From positions 9,944,501 through 10,008,500 of the forward strand of contig NZ_CP011509.1 of NCBI RefSeq assembly GCF_001027285.1: 64,000 nucleotides of DNA. Direction: 5' to 3'. This DNA is from Archangium gephyra. GTDB taxonomy: Bacteria > Myxococcota > Myxococcia > Myxococcales > Myxococcaceae. The notes under the pieces were generated by a model. That model was not told where the DNA came from, searched no databases, and saw only the letters and a list, made by a program, of their open reading frames with translations. Below, piece after piece: positions 6,783 to 41,215 of this stretch; position 1 is the stretch's first letter, and every line of letters starts with the position of its first letter. A program made the position numbers and the translations under genes.

Positions 6783-6859
6783 GGCCCTCGGCCGGGATTC
6801 GAACCCGGGTACTTCCGATACCCTCACCCCGTCCCTCTCCCGGCGGGAGAGGGGAAATC
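6783..6859 (-). repeat. Palindromic 3'-end repeat with class II tRNA half (copy A)
   Basis: Lies just downstream of the RND pump stop. Read on the gene strand, a 9-bp palindrome (CCCTCTCCC/GGGAGAGGG, 6833-6853) is followed by ACGGGGTGAGG. Next come a hairpin like a class II tRNA variable arm (6808-6822) and a T-arm (6792-6808). It is nearly identical to 11371-11448. Copies without the tRNA half occur at 15606, 28175 and 41153. Confidence 0.75.
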
Positions 6860-6880
6860 GGGCGAAGTGAGGCGCTCCCT

Positions 6881-9800
6881 TCAATTCGTGGCTTCTGGGA
6901 GACGCGTCTCTCCGGTTGGCACGGTCCGCGGGCTGAGCAGCTTCATGATGAAGACGTAGAAGACCGGCACGAAGATCACCGCGAGCACCGTGGCGGACAG
7001 CATCCCCCCGAGCACCCCCGTGCCAATGGCTCGCTGGCTGGCGGCGCCGGGCCCGGTCGCGATGGCGAGCGGAACCACGCCCAGCGTGAAGGCCAGCGAC
7101 GTCATGAGGATGGGACGGAAGCGCAACTGCGCGGCTTCGATCACCGCGTCCAGCAGCGGCCTGCCCTGGGCCCGGAGCTCCTGGGCGAACTCGATGATCA
7201 GAATGGCGTTCTTCGCCGACAGGCCAATGATCGTGATGAGTCCGACCTTGAAGTAGACATCGTTGTTCATCCCCCGGAGCATGACGGCCAGCACCGAGCC
7301 GAGCACTCCCAGGGGAACCACGAGCAACACGGCCAGGGGAATGGACCAGCTCTCATAGAGGGCCGCCAGGCACAGGAACACGAACAACAGGGACAGGGCG
7401 ATCAGGAACGGGGCCTGCGAGCCCGACTGGATCTCCTGCAGGGATTGCCCGCTCCAGTCGAAACCAAACCCGCGCGGGAGCTGGCTCGCCAGGCGCTCCA
7501 TCTCCCGGATGGCTTCACCACTCGAACGGCCGGGAGCCGCGTTGCCGCCAATACGGGCCGAGGGGTAGCCGTTGTAGCCAATGACCTGGGAGGGCCCCAT
7601 CCGCCAGTCCACCGTGGCGAAGGCTGACAAGGGCACCAGCGTCCCCTCTCGGTTGCGCACGTTGAGCGCGAGGACATCCTCCGTCTGCATGCGCCGGCTT
7701 CCCTCCGCCTGGACGATCACCCGCTGCATCCGGCCCGCGTTGGGAAAGTCATTGGAGTAGGCCGAGCCCAGGTTGATGGAGAGGGCCTCGTTGATCTCCG
7801 CGAACGTGATGCCGAGCGCACTCGCCTTCTCGCGATCGATGCGGAGCTCCACCTGCGGCGAGTTCTCCAACCCCTCGAACGCCACGCCGGAGAGGATGGG
7901 ACTCTGGGCGGCGGCCGCCACCAGTTGATTCCTCGCGGCGGCGAGCGCCTCCTGTCCCAGGCCCGCCCGGTCTTCCAGCCGGAAGGCGAAGCCTCCCGTG
8001 GTCCCCAGTCCCTCGATGGGCGGAGGCGCGAACGCGAAGATGAAGGCATCCCGCACCGCCGACAGCGCCCCGTTCACCCGCCCGGCGATGGCCCCGGCGC
8101 TGTCCTCCGCTCCTCGCTCCGACCAGGGCTTCAGCGTCGCGAAGCTCAAGGCCGCGTTCTGACCCTGGCCGTAGAAGCTGAAACCCAGGATGGCCACGAC
8201 CCGCTCCACGCCCGGCTCCGCCAGCAACGTCTTCTCCATCTGGACCACCGCGTCCAGCGTCCGGTTGACCGTGGCCTCCGCGGGCCCCTGCACCCCGAGG
8301 ATGATGAAGCCCTTGTCCTCGCTCGGGATGAAGGACGAGGGGAGTTGGACGAACAGCCAGCCGAGGGCCGCGAACACCGCGGCGTAGATGAGCATGAACC
8401 GGCCGGCACGATGCAGGGTGCGGCCCACGAAACCACGGTAGGCGTGGGACGTGCGCTCGAAGCCGCGGTTGAACCAGCCGAAGAACCCCGTGCTCGCGTG
8501 CGCGTGCCCCCGGGTGACGGGCTTCAGGAAGCTCGCGCAGAGCGCCGGCGTCAGGGACAAGGCGAGCAGCGCCGAGAACAGGATGGACACCACCATCGTC
8601 AGCGAGAACTGCTTGTAGATGACGCCCACGGAGCCAGGGAAGAAGCCCATGGGCACGAAGACGGCGCTGAGCACCAGCGTGATGCCAATGACGGCTCCCG
8701 TGATCTGCTTCATGGCCTTCTGCGTGGCTTCCCGCGGAGACAGGCCCTCCTCGCTCATGATGCGCTCCACGTTCTCGATCACCACGATGGCGTCATCCAC
8801 GAGGATGCCGATCGCGAGCACCATGGCGAACATGGTGAGCACGTTGATGGAGAACCCCAGGGCGTACATCACCGCGCAGGTGCCGAGCAGGGCGATGGGG
8901 ACGACGAGCGTGGGAATGAGCGTGTAGCGGATGTTCTGGAGGAACAGGAACATCACCAGGAAGACCAGGAGCACCGCCTCGGCGAGCGTGTAGAGGACCT
9001 TCTCGATGGACACTCCCACGAACGGGGCCGTGTCATAGGGAACGTCGTAGGCGACTCCCGGCGGGAAGAACCGGGCCAGCTCCTCCATCTTCGCGCGGAT
9101 CGCCTTCGAGGTCGCGAGGGCATTGCCCGTGGGAGACAACTGGATACCGATCGCCGCGCTCGGCTGGCCGTTGAGCCGTGAGGAGATGGTGTAGCTCTGC
9201 CCGCCCAGCTCCACGCGGGCCACGTCCCGCAGGCGCACCGAGGAACCATCCTCGTTCGCGCGAAGCACGATGGCGCCGAACTCCTCCGGCGAGGTCAACT
9301 GGCCCTTCACCAGCACGGTCGCCGTGACCTTCTGGGTCGCCGGTCCAGGGGGGGCGCCGAGCGAGCCCGCCGCGACCTGGGCGTTCTGCGCGCGAATGGC
9401 GTTCATCACGTCCTGGGTGGTGAGACCCACGCCCCGCAGCCGGAGGGGATCCACCCAGATGCGCATGGCGCGCTCGAAGGAGAAGGGCTGCGCCCGGCCC
9501 ACGCCCGGAATGCGCCGCAACTCATTGAGCACGTTGCGCGAGACGTAATCCCCCAGGCTGAGCTCGTCGAAGGAGCCGTCCGTGGAGCGCAACGTCACCA
9601 GCATGAGGAAGCCGCTGCCCGCTTCGTCGATCTGCAGGCCCTGCTGCGTCACGGCGAACGGCAACCGGGGCTCGACCCGTTTGACACGGTTCTGGAGCTC
9701 GACGGCGGCCAGCGCTGGGTCCGTCCCCGGCGCGAAGGTCGCGGTGATGGTGATCGCCCCCGTCGCTTCACTGGTCGACTCGAAGTAGAGCAACGACTTC

Positions 9801-10015
9801 GTGCCGTTGAGCTCCTCCTCGATGACGCGCGTGACGCTCTGGTAGATGTCCTCGGGCGACGCGCCCGGATAGTAGGTGGAGATGGTGAGCTGCGGCGGCG
9901 CCACGTTGGGGTACTGCGACACCGGCAGGTTGGGGATGGCGAGCACGCCCGCCATGATGATGAACAGCGCGATGACCCAGGCGAAGATGGGCCTGTCGAT
10001 GAAGAAACGAGGCAT
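6881..10015 (-). CDS. RND multidrug efflux pump inner-membrane subunit (HAE1/AcrB type)
   Basis: A 1044-residue transporter of normal family length, starting at MPRFFIDRPIFAWV (ATG 10015). It has the expected twelve membrane helices, one near the N-terminus and two groups of helices around two large periplasmic loops. The proton-relay aspartate pair is in GILVDDAIVVIENVER (helix 4 region), and the relay lysine is in IIGLSAKNAILIIEFA (helix 10 region). The family exports drugs, dyes or lipophilic compounds by proton antiport through a tripartite complex. The adaptor gene ends 10 bp upstream, so the two are one operon. No TolC-like gene or local regulator is in the window. An in-frame extension to 10102 is ignored because it overlaps the adaptor gene. 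Confidence 0.95.
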   Translation of the reverse strand: MPRFFIDRPIFAWVIALFIIMAGVLAIPNLPVSQYPNVAPPQLTISTYYPGASPEDIYQSVTRVIEEELNGTKSLLYFESTSEATGAITITATFAPGTDPALAAVELQNRVKRVEPRLPFAVTQQGLQIDEAGSGFLMLVTLRSTDGSFDELSLGDYVSRNVLNELRRIPGVGRAQPFSFERAMRIWVDPLRLRGVGLTTQDVMNAIRAQNAQVAAGSLGAPPGPATQKVTATVLVKGQLTSPEEFGAIVLRANEDGSSVRLRDVARVELGGQSYTISSRLNGQPSAAIGIQLSPTGNALATSKAIRAKMEELARFFPPGVAYDVPYDTAPFVGVSIEKVLYTLAEAVLLVFLVMFLFLQNIRYTLIPTLVVPIALLGTCAVMYALGFSINVLTMFAMVLAIGILVDDAIVVIENVERIMSEEGLSPREATQKAMKQITGAVIGITLVLSAVFVPMGFFPGSVGVIYKQFSLTMVVSILFSALLALSLTPALCASFLKPVTRGHAHASTGFFGWFNRGFERTSHAYRGFVGRTLHRAGRFMLIYAAVFAALGWLFVQLPSSFIPSEDKGFIILGVQGPAEATVNRTLDAVVQMEKTLLAEPGVERVVAILGFSFYGQGQNAALSFATLKPWSERGAEDSAGAIAGRVNGALSAVRDAFIFAFAPPPIEGLGTTGGFAFRLEDRAGLGQEALAAARNQLVAAAAQSPILSGVAFEGLENSPQVELRIDREKASALGITFAEINEALSINLGSAYSNDFPNAGRMQRVIVQAEGSRRMQTEDVLALNVRNREGTLVPLSAFATVDWRMGPSQVIGYNGYPSARIGGNAAPGRSSGEAIREMERLASQLPRGFGFDWSGQSLQEIQSGSQAPFLIALSLLFVFLCLAALYESWSIPLAVLLVVPLGVLGSVLAVMLRGMNNDVYFKVGLITIIGLSAKNAILIIEFAQELRAQGRPLLDAVIEAAQLRFRPILMTSLAFTLGVVPLAIATGPGAASQRAIGTGVLGGMLSATVLAVIFVPVFYVFIMKLLSPRTVPTGETRLPEATN

Positions 10016-10025
10016 GGCGGTAGGC

Positions 10026-11213
10026 CTATCGGGGCTGGGAGGGTTGGAGGCCGGCGCCAGGCGTGGTCCAGGCCACGGGCTTGACCGGTGCGCCCGCGCC
10101 AATCTTCTGGAAGCCCTCGACGATGACCTGATCGCCCGCCTTCAGGCCTTCCTGGATCACCGCCTGCTCCTGGTAGATGCGCGAGACACGCACCGGGCGC
10201 ACCTCGGCGGTGCCATTGCCCGCGACCACGAAGACCTGGGACTTGCCCGTGTTGTCGCGCTGGATGGCCTGCTGGGGCACGGCGAGTGCCTCGCTCAGGG
10301 TGCCCTGCTCGACGCGTCCCCGCACGTACATGCCGGGAAGGAGCTCGGCGTCGGGGTTGGGGAACTCCCCGCGCAGCGTCACCTGGCCACTGCCGGGATC
10401 CACCGTCACGTCCGAGAAGAGCAGCCGCCCCGCCTTCTCATAGAGCGCACCATCGTCGAGGACCAACTGGATGTTCGCCTGCTCGGAGGAGCTGCCCTGG
10501 ATCTGCCCGTCCTTGAGGGCCTGGCGAAGGCGGCGGAGCTCCATGGCGGGCTGGGTGAAGTCCACGTAGACCGGATCCAGCTGCTGGATGAGCGCGAGCG
10601 CCGTGGGATCTCCCGCGCTCACGAGCGCGCCTTCCGTCACCAGGGCCCGGCCGATCCGTCCGCCAATGGGCGCGCGGATCGTCGTGTACTCCAGGTTGAG
10701 CTCCGCGCGGCGCAGCGCCGCCTTGGCCGCCGCCACATCGGCCTCGGCACGCCGGAGGGCCGCCTGGAGCGTCTCGTGCTGCTCCTGGGTGGCGACGCCG
10801 CTGGCCAGGAGCTTCTCGCCCCGCTCCGCCTGCTGGCGGGCCTCCGCGGCCGTCACCTCGGCCTTCGCCAGCACGGCCCTCGCGCTGGCCCGCTCGACCT
10901 CGTACATCGCCGCGTCGAGCTTGAAGAGCACGTCTCCCGCCTTCACGCTGCCCCCCTGCCGGAAGACGCGCTCGACGATGATGCCGGACACGCGCGGACG
11001 CACCTCGGCGCTCCGCATCGGAGCGATGCGCCCCGGCAACTCATCGAGCACCGGAATGCTCGCGGGCCGCACCGTGATCGTTCCCACCTCCACGGCCGGA
11101 GGGGCTCCGCCCGGAGGGGGTGCTTCGGGTGACTTGTTGCAAGCCGCGCCCCACAAGACGGAGACGAGGGCGACGGTGGAGAAGAAGGGCGTCCGGATTC
11201 GAGCGGAGTGCAT
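10026..11213 (-). CDS. RND efflux periplasmic adaptor lipoprotein (MFP/AcrA type)
   Basis: A 395-residue adaptor. The signal peptide ends in a lipobox (VLWGAAC, Cys near residue 25), so the mature protein is an inner-membrane-tethered lipoprotein. It has a biotinyl-lipoyl half (VRPRVSGIIVERVF), a helical hairpin of about 75 residues rich in Ala/Glu/Arg, the returning half (YTTIRAPIGGRIGRALV), a beta-barrel and a membrane-proximal domain. It links the pump encoded 10 bp downstream to an outer-membrane channel encoded elsewhere. A 17-bp inverted repeat at 11276-11292 lies upstream and could be an operator; no regulator gene is adjacent. Confidence 0.95.
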   Translation of the reverse strand: MHSARIRTPFFSTVALVSVLWGAACNKSPEAPPPGGAPPAVEVGTITVRPASIPVLDELPGRIAPMRSAEVRPRVSGIIVERVFRQGGSVKAGDVLFKLDAAMYEVERASARAVLAKAEVTAAEARQQAERGEKLLASGVATQEQHETLQAALRRAEADVAAAKAALRRAELNLEYTTIRAPIGGRIGRALVTEGALVSAGDPTALALIQQLDPVYVDFTQPAMELRRLRQALKDGQIQGSSSEQANIQLVLDDGALYEKAGRLLFSDVTVDPGSGQVTLRGEFPNPDAELLPGMYVRGRVEQGTLSEALAVPQQAIQRDNTGKSQVFVVAGNGTAEVRPVRVSRIYQEQAVIQEGLKAGDQVIVEGFQKIGAGAPVKPVAWTTPGAGLQPSQPR

Positions 11214-11275
11214 GAGGCGTTCCTGGACCGGCCACGCGGGGGCTCGCGGTCAGTCAGGTTGAAATGCTGGTTTTT

Positions 11276-11292
11276 CGAAGGGCGCCCCTTCG
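11276..11292. promoter_or_regulatory. Inverted repeat upstream of efflux operon, candidate operator
   Basis: Two perfect 7-bp arms (CGAAGGG and CCCTTCG) flank a 3-bp centre, 63 bp upstream of the adaptor start. On the operon strand the hairpin is followed by A residues, not T, so it is unlikely to be a terminator. The position fits an operator for a dimeric repressor, but this is inference. Confidence 0.35.
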
Positions 11293-11370
11293 TACTACAG
11301 AGGTCACTTCGGAAGGAACCTCCGCGATAGGAACACGAAGGGCCTCCGCTCCCAGATTCTTGGAGCGTGA

Positions 11371-11448
11371 GGCCCTCGGTCCGGGATTCGAACCCGGGTA
11401 CTTCCGATACCCTCACCCCGTCCCTCTCCCGAGGGGAGAGGGGAAATC
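11371..11448 (-). repeat. Palindromic 3'-end repeat with class II tRNA half (copy B)
   Basis: Directly abuts the stop codon of the trans-sulfuration gene. It has the same layout as 6783-6859: palindrome 11422-11442, GGGGTGAGG, a variable-arm-like hairpin, a T-arm near 11381-11397, then an acceptor-like tail. It differs from copy A at only a few positions. Confidence 0.75.
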
Positions 11449-12591
11449 TCAGGCCACGTCGAGCGCCTGCTTCAGGTCATCCACGAGGTCCTGCGCATCC
11501 TCGATGCCCACCGACAGCCGGATGAGCCCGTCCGAGATGCCCAGCAGCTCGCGCGTCTCCTTGGGCACCGACGCGTGCGTCATGATCGCCGGGTGCTCGA
11601 TGAGCGACTCCACGCCACCGAGCGACTCGGCGCACGCGAAGATCTTCACCGTCTTGAGGAACTTGCGCGCCGCCTCCAGCCCGCCCTTGATGTCGAAGGT
11701 CATCATGCCGCCGAAGCCCTTCATCTGCTTGCGGGCCAGCGCATGCTGCGGGTGGCTCTCCAGGCCCGGGTAGGTGACCTTCTGCACCTTCGGGTGCGTG
11801 GCGAGGAACTGGGCCACCTTCAGCGCGTTCTGCGCGTGGCGCTCCATGCGCACGCCCAGCGTCTTCACGCCGCGCAGCACCAGGAAGCAGTCCATGGGGC
11901 CCGGCACGCCGCCCACCGCGTTCTGCAGGAAGTACATCTTCTGCGCCAGCTCGTCATTGCTGGTGCACACGAAGCCGCCCACCACGTCGCTGTGGCCGTT
12001 GATGTACTTCGTCGTCGAGTGCGTCACCACGTCGAACCCCAGGTCCATCGGACGCTGGAAGTACGGCGTCATGAACGTGTTGTCACACACCGACAGGATG
12101 TTCCGCTTCTTCGCCGTCTCCGCGATGCGCGGCAGGTCGATGAGCTTGAGCATCGGGTTGGTGGGCGACTCCACCCACACCATCTTCGTCTTGGGCGTGA
12201 TGGCCTTCTCGAAGTTGTCCGGGTTGGACAGGTCCACCCACGAGAAGTTCAGCCCGTGACGGCGGAAGACCTTGTCGAAGATGCGGAAGGTGCCGCCGTA
12301 CACGTCGTCGGACACCACCACGTGGTCCCCGGACTCCAGCATGTGCATCAGCATGTCCGAGCCCGCCAGACCCGAGGCGAACGCGAGGCCATGCTTCGCC
12401 CCCTCGAGGGCCGCCAGACAGTCCTGGAGCGCGTTGCGGGTGGGGTTCTGGGTCCGGCTGTACTCGAAGCCCTTGTGCTCCCCGGGGCCCGCCTGGACGT
12501 AGGTGGAGGTCAGGTAGACCGGCGTCATGATGGCGCCCGTCGTGGGATCCGGCTCCTGGCCGGCATGGATGGCGAGGGTATCGAAGCGCAT
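11449..12591 (-). CDS. PLP-dependent trans-sulfuration enzyme (cystathionine gamma-synthase/lyase)
   Basis: A 380-residue Cys/Met-metabolism PLP enzyme of typical length. The PLP phosphate-binding region is YSRTQNPTRNALQ, the cofactor-stacking region follows in VVVSDDVYGGTFR, and SVCDNTFMTPYFQRP precedes the Schiff-base lysine in HSTTKYINGHSD. The C-terminal ESLIEHPAIMTHASVP motif is typical of both cystathionine gamma-synthase (MetB) and gamma-lyase (MccB/CTH), so I leave the direction open. It acts in the cytosol in methionine/cysteine interconversion. It is monocistronic, with a palindromic repeat exactly at its stop and a divergent rRNA methyltransferase upstream. Confidence 0.9.
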   Translation of the reverse strand: MRFDTLAIHAGQEPDPTTGAIMTPVYLTSTYVQAGPGEHKGFEYSRTQNPTRNALQDCLAALEGAKHGLAFASGLAGSDMLMHMLESGDHVVVSDDVYGGTFRIFDKVFRRHGLNFSWVDLSNPDNFEKAITPKTKMVWVESPTNPMLKLIDLPRIAETAKKRNILSVCDNTFMTPYFQRPMDLGFDVVTHSTTKYINGHSDVVGGFVCTSNDELAQKMYFLQNAVGGVPGPMDCFLVLRGVKTLGVRMERHAQNALKVAQFLATHPKVQKVTYPGLESHPQHALARKQMKGFGGMMTFDIKGGLEAARKFLKTVKIFACAESLGGVESLIEHPAIMTHASVPKETRELLGISDGLIRLSVGIEDAQDLVDDLKQALDVA

Positions 12592-14858: not shown

Positions 14859-15581
14859 ATGTTCTCCGCCCTCTCCGTGCTCGCCCTGCTGCTCTCAGCG
14901 GATGGGACCCAGAATCCGAAGGAGTCCCCCACCGCGCCCGTCCAGGTGATCGCGCTCGCGGTGGACGTGGACTTCGTCTGCCGCACCCCGAGCACCCAGA
15001 GCCTCATCCTCCCCCCCAAGGCCCAGGTCCAGCTCGAGGTCCCCAAGGACTGTCCCGATGCCCGCGCCGACTGGCGCCTCTCCGTCGACTGCGCTGACGA
15101 GAAGCACTGCTCCGGCGACATCCGCACCCGGGAGGCGGTCATCGCCCGTGTCGAGGGCTCGCGAAAGCTGCTCACCGTCACCCCCGTCTCCCCTCAGCAT
15201 CCCCCCACCCTGGACTTCATGGCCGTGCGCATCACCGGCCAGCACTCACTCGCGCTGGAGACACCCACCGAGCACCAGCCCCCCGTGCAGCTGCTGCTCC
15301 AGGTTCCCGCCGTGACGGGCGTCTACACGCTCTCGCCTTCCGAGCCGGAGCCGCTCGCGCTGGACTTCGAGCACCGCGGCAGGCGGCTGAAGCTGTACGC
15401 CCGCGCCTCCCGCACCGATGCCACCCACGTCCGCCTCCAGCTCTGGAACGCCCGGAAGGAGCTGCTGCTGGACGCGGCGCTCGAGATGGACAAGCCCCGG
15501 GAGCTCGAGTGCCAGCGGCTGGAATCCATCTGCGAGGGGGTGATGAAGTTCTGGGTCCGCGAGTACCAGCGCGTCCTCTGA
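14859..15581 (+). CDS. Exported protein of unknown function
   Basis: A 240-residue protein with a short hydrophobic N-terminus (MFSALSVLALLLSADG) that can act as a signal peptide. The rest is beta-rich and contains three cysteines in the segment VDCADEKHCSGD and nearby, a possible disulfide region. No family motif is recognised. It is separated by 74 bp from the upstream membrane-anchored gene and faces fxsA across a palindromic repeat. Codon use is typical of the genome, so this appears to be a native gene. Confidence 0.65.
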   Translation: MFSALSVLALLLSADGTQNPKESPTAPVQVIALAVDVDFVCRTPSTQSLILPPKAQVQLEVPKDCPDARADWRLSVDCADEKHCSGDIRTREAVIARVEGSRKLLTVTPVSPQHPPTLDFMAVRITGQHSLALETPTEHQPPVQLLLQVPAVTGVYTLSPSEPEPLALDFEHRGRRLKLYARASRTDATHVRLQLWNARKELLLDAALEMDKPRELECQRLESICEGVMKFWVREYQRVL

Positions 15582-15605
15582 CACACAGGCAGCAGGACGG
15601 GGACG

Positions 15606-15647
15606 GATACCCTCACCCCGTCCCTCTCCCGGAGGGCGAGGGGAAAT
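15606..15647 (-). repeat. Palindromic 3'-end repeat (copy C)
   Basis: Abuts the fxsA stop codon and also lies in the convergent gap with the preceding gene. The palindrome arms are CCCTCTCCC and GGGCGAGGG (one mismatch), with the usual GGGGTGAGG on the distal side when read from fxsA. The tRNA half seen in copies A and B is absent. Confidence 0.7.
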
Positions 15648-16160
15648 TCACTCCTCGGTGAACTCCGCGTCCGTTTCGTTTCCTGGCCGCCGTTCGATTC
15701 GGGGCTGCGAGGCTCGGGGTTCTGCTCCCGGTGCGGTCCCGAAGGGCCCTCCGGGGAACGGGCCCCCCTGGAACGTCGTGACGCGCAGCGTGCCCGCCGC
15801 CATGCGGCGCTCGAGTCTCCGGCGCACCAGCGCGGCGATGACCCGGCGCGTCGGCGGGAACAGCAGGAAGAGCCCCACGACGTCGGTGAGCACCCCCGGC
15901 GACACCAGCAGCACCCCGCCCACCAGGACGAGCACCCCACCCACCAGCCCTTCCTCGGGCATGCGGCCCTGCGCGAGCGACTCCTGCCAGCGGCGGAGCA
16001 CGCGCAAGCCCTCCTTCTTGGCCAGCCAGGCACCGACCACGCCCGTGAGCAGCACCCCGCCCACCGTGGGCCAGAAGCCCACCTCGCGGCCAATGGCCAG
16101 CAGCAGGTACAGCTCGATGAAGGGAACGACCGTGAACGCCAGGAGAAGGTACTTGAACAC
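15648..16160 (-). CDS. fxsA: FxsA family inner-membrane protein
   Basis: A 170-residue protein. It begins with a hydrophobic helix (MFKYLLLAFTVVPFIELYLL), a second membrane segment (FWPTVGGVLLTGVVGAWLA) and a third in GGVLLVSPGVLTDVVGLFLL. The LLVSPG..TD..G motif is the hallmark of FxsA. The C-terminal tail of about 50 residues is Pro/Gly-rich and then acidic. FxsA in E. coli relieves exclusion of phage T7 by the F plasmid; its normal role is not known. It sits 63 bp downstream of another small membrane protein gene. Confidence 0.9.
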   Translation of the reverse strand: MFKYLLLAFTVVPFIELYLLLAIGREVGFWPTVGGVLLTGVVGAWLAKKEGLRVLRRWQESLAQGRMPEEGLVGGVLVLVGGVLLVSPGVLTDVVGLFLLFPPTRRVIAALVRRRLERRMAAGTLRVTTFQGGPFPGGPFGTAPGAEPRASQPRIERRPGNETDAEFTEE

Positions 16161-41094: not shown

Positions 41095-41128
41095 GAGGCC
41101 CCCGCCCGGAAACACGGACGGAGGCCTC
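41095..41128. terminator. Hairpin related to the one at 39358
   Basis: Arms of 14 bp (41095-41108 and 41115-41128) pair with two mismatches around a 6-base loop. The sequence is clearly related to 39358-39390. It lies between the SPFH gene's 3' end and the hydrolase gene's 5' end. Confidence 0.45.
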
Positions 41129-41152
41129 GGGGTACAACTCGGGAGCCCAGAC

Positions 41153-41187
41153 ACCCTCACCCCGTCCCTCTCCCGAGGGGAGAGGGG
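41153..41187 (-). repeat. Palindromic 3'-end repeat (copy D)
   Basis: About 30 bp after the SPFH gene stop and in the same orientation relative to the gene as the other copies: palindrome CCCTCTCCC/GGGAGAGGG with GGGGTGAGG on its distal side. The tRNA-like half is absent. Confidence 0.75.
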
Positions 41188-41215
41188 TGGTGGGGGGAGA
41201 GCGGGCAAATGAGGG

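Follow-up and report, generated by a model that had tools for sequence, protein, structure and literature searches.

The stretch of DNA analysed here (the window) comprises 64,000 nucleotides, positions 9944501–10008500 of contig C1, from the genome of an Archangium (Myxococcota) that spans 12.49 Mb in a single contig and is hereafter called G000. A minus-strand operon in this window encodes an RND efflux pump of the AcrB/AcrD/AcrF family (6881–10015) and, adjoining it, a HlyD/CusB-type membrane-fusion protein (10026–11213), and the operon is framed by two short repeats on the same strand, copies A and B. Copy B (11371–11448) directly follows the stop codon (11449–11451) of a minus-strand gene for a cystathionine-synthase-like, pyridoxal 5′-phosphate-dependent enzyme of Cys/Met metabolism (11449–12591), and copy A (6783–6859) lies on the other side of the operon. 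Both consist of a palindromic repeat and a core resembling the T arm of a tRNA. Copy A also includes a truncated piece of a terminator-like hairpin, and a hairpin of this kind (GGGCCTC...GAGGCCC, 11340–11375, minus strand) stands behind copy B. A sequence-only reading of the window had interpreted A and B as the 3′ half of a class II tRNA, copied as a unit in the manner of a tRNA-derived dispersed repeat. Here we examine what these repeats are and how they may have come to flank the operon.

The two copies form a direct repeat with 97% identity across 68 nt (6792–6859 versus 11381–11448), in line with the near identity noticed earlier. In minus-strand order, each begins with a palindrome stem-loop, CCCTCTCCC–loop–GGGAGAGGG (6833–6853 in A; 11422–11442 in B), followed by GAGGGTATCGGAAGTA-CCGGGTTCGAATCCCGG. 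The stretch that had been read as a long variable arm, GGTATCGGAAGTACC, occupies 6808–6822 in A and 11397–11411 in B, and its first part, GGTATCGG, is common within the palindrome family described below. It leads into the T-arm-like CCGGGTTCGAATCCCGG at 6792–6808 and 11381–11397. The perfect T arm that had been claimed is indeed present, with a 5-bp stem and a TTCGAAT loop (CCGGG TTCGAAT CCCGG) that agrees with the TTCRA consensus. The accompanying variable arm did not hold up. Its pairing, GGTA...TACC, amounts to 4 bp only and has one C in common with the T-stem (TACCCGGG); with just three C present where four are needed, TACC and CCGGG cannot both pair in full. Neither arm forms part of the minimum-energy RNA fold. 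Relative to 200 dinucleotide shuffles, the fold energies of A (6783–6860, z = −0.50) and of B with a gene-side extension (11371–11464, z = −0.12) were ordinary, and B with the terminator-like hairpin (11332–11450) folded better than all 200 shuffles (z = −3.96). No acceptor 3′ strand follows the T arm, as the stretch beyond it enters the first arm of the terminator-like hairpin, which makes up most of the acceptor-like CCGAGGGCC of B. No 5′ tRNA half was seen at A or B, as had been noted before.

Comparison of the repeats with the tRNAs of the genome was based on 73 of 78 ARAGORN sequences, excluding entries of at least 95 nt and those containing the repeat; no tRNA-Sec was identified among the 73. 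The 16-nt variable-arm stretch aligned to the best of these with a score of 8, against a mean of 8.4 and a maximum of 11.5 for 200 shuffles that preserve base composition only, and thus no Ser, Leu, Sec or Tyr tRNA with a matching variable arm was found in this set. Towards the best family copy the same stretch scored 13 (shuffles: mean 8.2, maximum 11). The 39-nt core gave 20.5 against the best family copy and 19.5 against the best tRNA, both above the shuffle maximum of 16.5; the tRNA score is owed largely to the T arm, which tRNAs have in common, so the T arm alone is not decisive. An 8-nt match, GGGTATCG, is present in Ser tRNA sequences of the genome. A further difference lies at position 58 of the T loop, which is A in 71 of the 72 tRNAs in which it could be read, but in just 9 of 30 copies with palindrome+CGGGTTCG and 10 of 24 with palindrome+GGGTTNNNATCC. 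The former set uses 30 of 31 matches, one being without a locus, and the sites in two of its loci (L290 and L268; L numbers denote gathered loci) lie off the expected locus centre. Since A58 is not consistently kept, family copies do not preserve the requirements of a T loop.

Model-based searches agreed with these alignments. The genome has 79 tRNA-model matches, none of them at A or B, and no Rfam family reached its gathering score within the window. ARAGORN did call tRNAs on A, B and L028, and we rejected these calls as artefacts of the palindrome; the tRNA-Glu(CTC) called on B places its anticodon in the palindrome and, for its 5′ side, draws on the last part of the cystathionine-synthase-like gene. 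A class II tRNA donor was rejected on the alignments against shuffles together with the T-loop variation among copies. Both outcomes that the earlier reading had named as counting against it were thus observed: the tRNAs compared offer no matching variable and T arm, and copies vary freely in this part. Eukaryotic tRNA-derived SINEs (short interspersed nuclear elements) are dispersed units with a tRNA-like stretch; A and B differ from them in having no 5′ half and no tRNA donor among the sequences compared. The proposal of a tRNA-derived dispersed repeat therefore fails, and the family to which A and B belong is one of palindromes resembling repetitive extragenic palindromic (REP) sequences. 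Elsewhere in G000, L069 (3.630–3.633 Mb), L079 and L080 (11.51 Mb) hold arrays of odd tRNA genes, including ARAGORN Leu calls of 75–76 nt without a long variable arm, which are perhaps of phage origin. In L077 (1126200–1126700), a 163-nt tRNA-model match adjoins a second T-arm sequence, perhaps reflecting broken or interrupted tRNA genes.

The palindrome itself is abundant. The pattern GAGGGACGGGGTGAGGGTNNCNG occurs at 150 exact places in G000, compared with none for a reversed control, and relatives were found in 10 of the 30 genomes searched, among them G000 itself and all five congeners (G001–G005). When the first 30 of the 150 places by position were judged with a rough call of open reading frames, 27 lay between predicted genes, and a number of family copies form inverted pairs about 100 nt apart. 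Two further copies lie in the window on the minus strand, at 15581–15648, with a different 3′ flank, and at 41125–41192. The 25–30 nt after the palindrome are likewise family sequence, usually with a T-R-Y-C start and often with an inner palindrome of the type CGGGTT-GAA-CCC. Among 129 copies in G000 with the exact 17-mer, this inner part carries GGGTTGA[A/G] in 43, other GGGTTG in 17, GGGTTC in 22, other GGGTT in one and none of these in 46, and intermediates between the core types exist (GGGTTCAAACCC, GGGTTCCAACCC, GGGTTCCATCCC and GGGTTCCGATCCC). Among 172 own-genome copies, a set drawn from the matches listed and partly by core similarity, only A and B have R57 and A58 in a perfect T arm. 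Similarly, A and B are the only places in G000 where the palindrome is joined to GGTTCGAATCC (two of seven matches of a loose pattern). An exact match to their core was found in a contig of A. violaceum Cb vi76 (L264). Across the 172 copies, the 5′ arm of the palindrome reads CCCTCTCCC in 124 and CCCTCGCCC in 45, with the opposite arm constantly GGGAGAGGG; judged from these sequences, the uncompensated mismatch looks as though sequence, rather than pairing, is kept.

By generic standards the family is REP-like, being a short palindrome of high copy number and mostly extragenic location. Its likeness to REP sequences, bacterial interspersed mosaic elements (BIMEs) and REPINs (paired, inverted REPs; PMC3116915, PMC3733652) extends to at least 100 copies, a mostly intergenic distribution and some inverted pairs about 100 nt apart. 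In contrast to those systems, the Archangium copies have no adjoining gene for a REP-associated tyrosine transposase (RAYT). Three weak Y1_Tnp matches (23.3–23.9 bits, cut-off 23) were detected in G000, none of them with a palindrome within 1.5 kb, and a RAYT flanked by the repeat, as in GTAG REPs and REPINs, was accordingly rejected. CGTC-tagged REPs, defined by a CGTC tag, a stem with AT at the first and second positions, a loop of 4–5 nt and a CCA tail, are reported to lack a dedicated transposase (Di Nocera et al. 2013, PMC3733652). The Archangium palindrome bears CGTC at the foot of its stem and is likewise without a mobiliser in our searches, but membership was rejected, as its stem does not have AT at the first two positions, its loop is of 3 nt and its tail is not CCA. 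No title on this palindrome family was among those listed for such repeats, Archangium palindromes or Myxococcus tmRNA, which is no proof of absence.

Orthologous positions in the six genomes of the genus reveal how the unit varies. The cystathionine-synthase-like gene next to site B is conserved in all six. After its stop codon, G000 has the palindrome, the TTCGAAT loop and the terminator-like hairpin, and G001 is alike but for a TTCAAAT loop. In G005 the loop reads TTCGCCT and four of five T-stem pairs remain; G002 has another palindrome, without this core, plus a hairpin; and G003 has no repeat. In G004 (L234, at about 2430) the palindrome is cleanly absent, and a T-arm-like piece with TCCGAAT and the terminator are retained. 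The T loop therefore varies freely among orthologues, as it does in orthologous sets elsewhere (L213/L216/L282/L267 and L233/L214/L212).

The RND operon lies between B and A in two of the six genomes, G000 and G004. The G004 orthologue of A aligns with B over 116 columns at 91% identity, terminator-like hairpin included (the hairpin of A in G000 is truncated), which bears out the earlier suggestion that the unit was copied as a whole. In G001, G002, G003 and G005 the best DNA match to the last 911 bases of the pump gene (91–93%) is elsewhere in the genome, and no repeat was found in the 420 nt downstream of it. A second repeat copy thus accompanies the RND operon between A and B. The two copies represent one duplicated unit, and having arisen in one event they are not independent evidence. 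In G004 the other flank at A resumes after about 1 kb, so the asymmetry of site A reflects an indel and not a break. The RND segment yielded no precise empty site, the compared DNA beyond site B in G001 being unlike that beyond A in G004.

Overall, we think it probable that A and B are drifted members of the REP-like family, whose inner palindrome has come to look like a T arm. On this reading both represent the same member of the family, which comprises short GC-rich palindromes dispersed mostly intergenically in Archangium genomes. Family copies presumably spread as non-autonomous elements, no mobiliser having been found in the RAYT search described above. In the lineage of site B, between the cystathionine-synthase-like gene and the terminator-like hairpin, the inner palindrome would have drifted and gained two loop bases to give CCGGGTTCGAATCCCGG, fitting the T-arm consensus by chance. 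Counting the hairpin, the whole unit spans about 116 bp. It would then have been duplicated as the RND operon took up its place, apparently by relocation, after the cystathionine-synthase-like gene in an ancestor common to G000 and G004; B would have ended up before the operon and A, the presumed derivative of B, after it. Drift accounts for the variable-arm stretch, the free variation, the orthologues and the duplication.

Plain drift leaves unexplained that similar copies carry the 3′ end of transfer-messenger RNA (tmRNA, ssrA) and that they stand at changes of synteny. Several observations on these two points weigh against it. Congener copies similar to A and B in TATCGGAAG bear tmRNA 3′ ends. 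In a simple score against the tmRNA 3′ end (GCGGGTTCGATTCCCGCCGCCTCC), A and B reach 15, L275, L278 and L281 reach 23 to 29, and the other 170 own-genome copies stay at or below 13; 500 shuffles of A gave a mean of 6.0 (standard deviation 1.2, maximum 11.5). In comparisons of flanks, all four cross-genome loci of the TATCGG[A/G]AG type, to which A and B belong, and one near variant keep the flank on the palindrome side only.

These observations raise a second explanation, in which a branch of the family that had become joined to the tmRNA 3′ end gave rise to A and B, such copies acting as secondary attachment sites for tyrosine integrases of the tRNA/tmRNA type, and A and B marking the two ends where the RND operon segment inserted. 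We regard this as a real but clearly less likely possibility. The palindrome+CGGGTTCG set contains six copies with a perfect T arm and A58, namely A, B, the G004 orthologue of A, L275, L278 and L281. Through their 3′ ends, the last three match the Rfam tmRNA model (L275 in G003, E = 1.2e-8; L281 in G003, E = 9.6e-7; L278 in G001, E = 2.7e-10) with 25 to 34 bits, below the gathering score of 47. L275 and L278 (the latter being L226 in the flank comparison) are orthologous, so the three tmRNA-bearing copies represent two loci. Of 89 viral contigs containing a 28-mer common to L275 and L281, 42 have it as the end of a tmRNA called by ARAGORN. A and B, in contrast, did not match tmRNA even with E values of up to 10 allowed, and three copies that have TATCGGAAGGAC in common, L276, L192 and L008, score just 18, 12 and 10 against the tmRNA end. 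A tRNA-like donor for such repeats is thus not absurd given the three tmRNA-bearing sister copies, but it would be tmRNA, for A and B a candidate only.

Sequences resembling the tmRNA 3′ end also occur dispersed in G000. Eleven GGTTCGATTCC places outside tRNAs are among the matches listed (first 3.67 Mb), and in ten of them the sequence runs on as CCCGCCGC..., resembling the tmRNA 3′ end, which counts in favour of the attachment-site explanation. The flanks of these ten are mostly unlike each other; five contain the 22-mer GGTTCGATTCCCGCCGCCTCCA exactly and five with 1 to 4 mismatches. The tmRNA gene of G000 itself was not called in loci up to L294, 20 further places and 13 stretches of 20 kb. 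Such ends, outside called tmRNA genes, are seen at L384–L388 and L390–L394 (G000) as well as at L405, L406 and L408; some form direct pairs 2.2 to 8 kb apart, and several have an extended hairpin, GGCGGCGGGTTCGATTCCCGCCGCC. A downstream hairpin region (CACTCAGAAGCTCAGCAAT...) is common to L411 and three stretches. Genes for DUF5953 proteins are found close to such ends in L405 and L411, as are DUF6310 and TsiV genes in L411. Among 30 proteins from both flanks of such sites, a Pfam comparison confined to these proteins recognised no integrase.

Changes of synteny at the repeats were assessed in two ways. In stretches compared within 20 kb, L411/L413 and L412/L414, the surroundings of L275/L278 and L281, match on the palindrome side as far as the T-arm-like sequence reaches and are unlike beyond it; L415/L416 shows the same one-sided alignment across only 984 bp. 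In addition, 145 units flanked on either side by 600 nt or more were compared over 1 kb per side, a test in which a break and an insertion of more than 1 kb, as at site A, are indistinguishable. This yielded 29 cross-genome pairs with a conserved flank, not independent of one another: 20 conserved on both sides, nine on the palindrome side only and none on the other side only. The nine one-sided pairs correspond to seven loci: A, B, L415/L192 and L182/L183 of the TATCGG[A/G]AG type, L226/L275 with near variants, and L288/L269 and L224/L222 of other types. Both flanks are kept in three further GGTTCG sets (L109, L213 and L233 with their orthologues), but not in L288/L269, which also has CGGGTTCG.

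This one-sided pattern agrees with published genomic islands, which cross over in the T loop or at the T/acceptor junction and leave 3′ fragments behind (Islander, PMC4383910). The three sister copies with a tmRNA 3′ end resemble such fragments, orthology stopping there at two loci, but differ in being joined to a dispersed palindrome with no integrase recognised nearby, and A and B do not share the Rfam match. Other results fit integration poorly. A terminator-like hairpin follows the T arm at site B in G000, G001 and G004, and orthology is thus not broken at the T arm itself; the RND segment has no precise empty site; and the sampling favoured T-arm-like cores. Repeats behind stop codons may also show the same flank asymmetry trivially. 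We gave integration, and the broader scenario set out below, somewhat less weight because site A is an indel and because one-sided loci occur outside the TATCGG[A/G]AG type; the synteny pattern is a lead, not a proof.

It is very unlikely that the T-arm-like hairpin is a selected 3′ untranslated RNA element, for example one serving mRNA stability or a mimic bound by a tRNA enzyme. It does have a stop codon on one side and a terminator-like hairpin on the other, and B folds with that terminator better than its shuffles, but the gain depends on the terminator, and the T arm is neither part of the best fold nor preserved in orthologues. Least tenable is the reading as a genuine class II (Ser/Leu/Sec) tRNA 3′ half, which, for all its perfect T arm and the short Ser tRNA match, is on sequence grounds already contradicted by a variable arm that matches no tRNA above shuffles and overlaps the T-stem, by an acceptor-like part within the terminator-like hairpin, by sister copies that do not keep A58 and by the want of any tRNA-model match at either site.

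A lone T-arm consensus inside GC-rich palindromes should therefore be read as a tRNA fragment only with caution. The tmRNA ends found alongside carry more weight than the original claim of a tRNA repeat, which does not hold. In a broader and improbable scenario, a palindrome branch fused to the tmRNA 3′ end would have spread as ready-made attachment sites at which integrases of the tRNA/tmRNA type, acting in trans, insert cargo, and the repeat network would decide where accessory genes land. If true, this cargo would comprise immunity-like genes and genes of unknown function at one site and, in the window, the RND efflux operon between A and B. The copies in which the palindrome is joined to a tmRNA 3′ end, lying at changes of synteny, together with the dispersed tmRNA ends, suggest that a repeat family may scatter integration sites.

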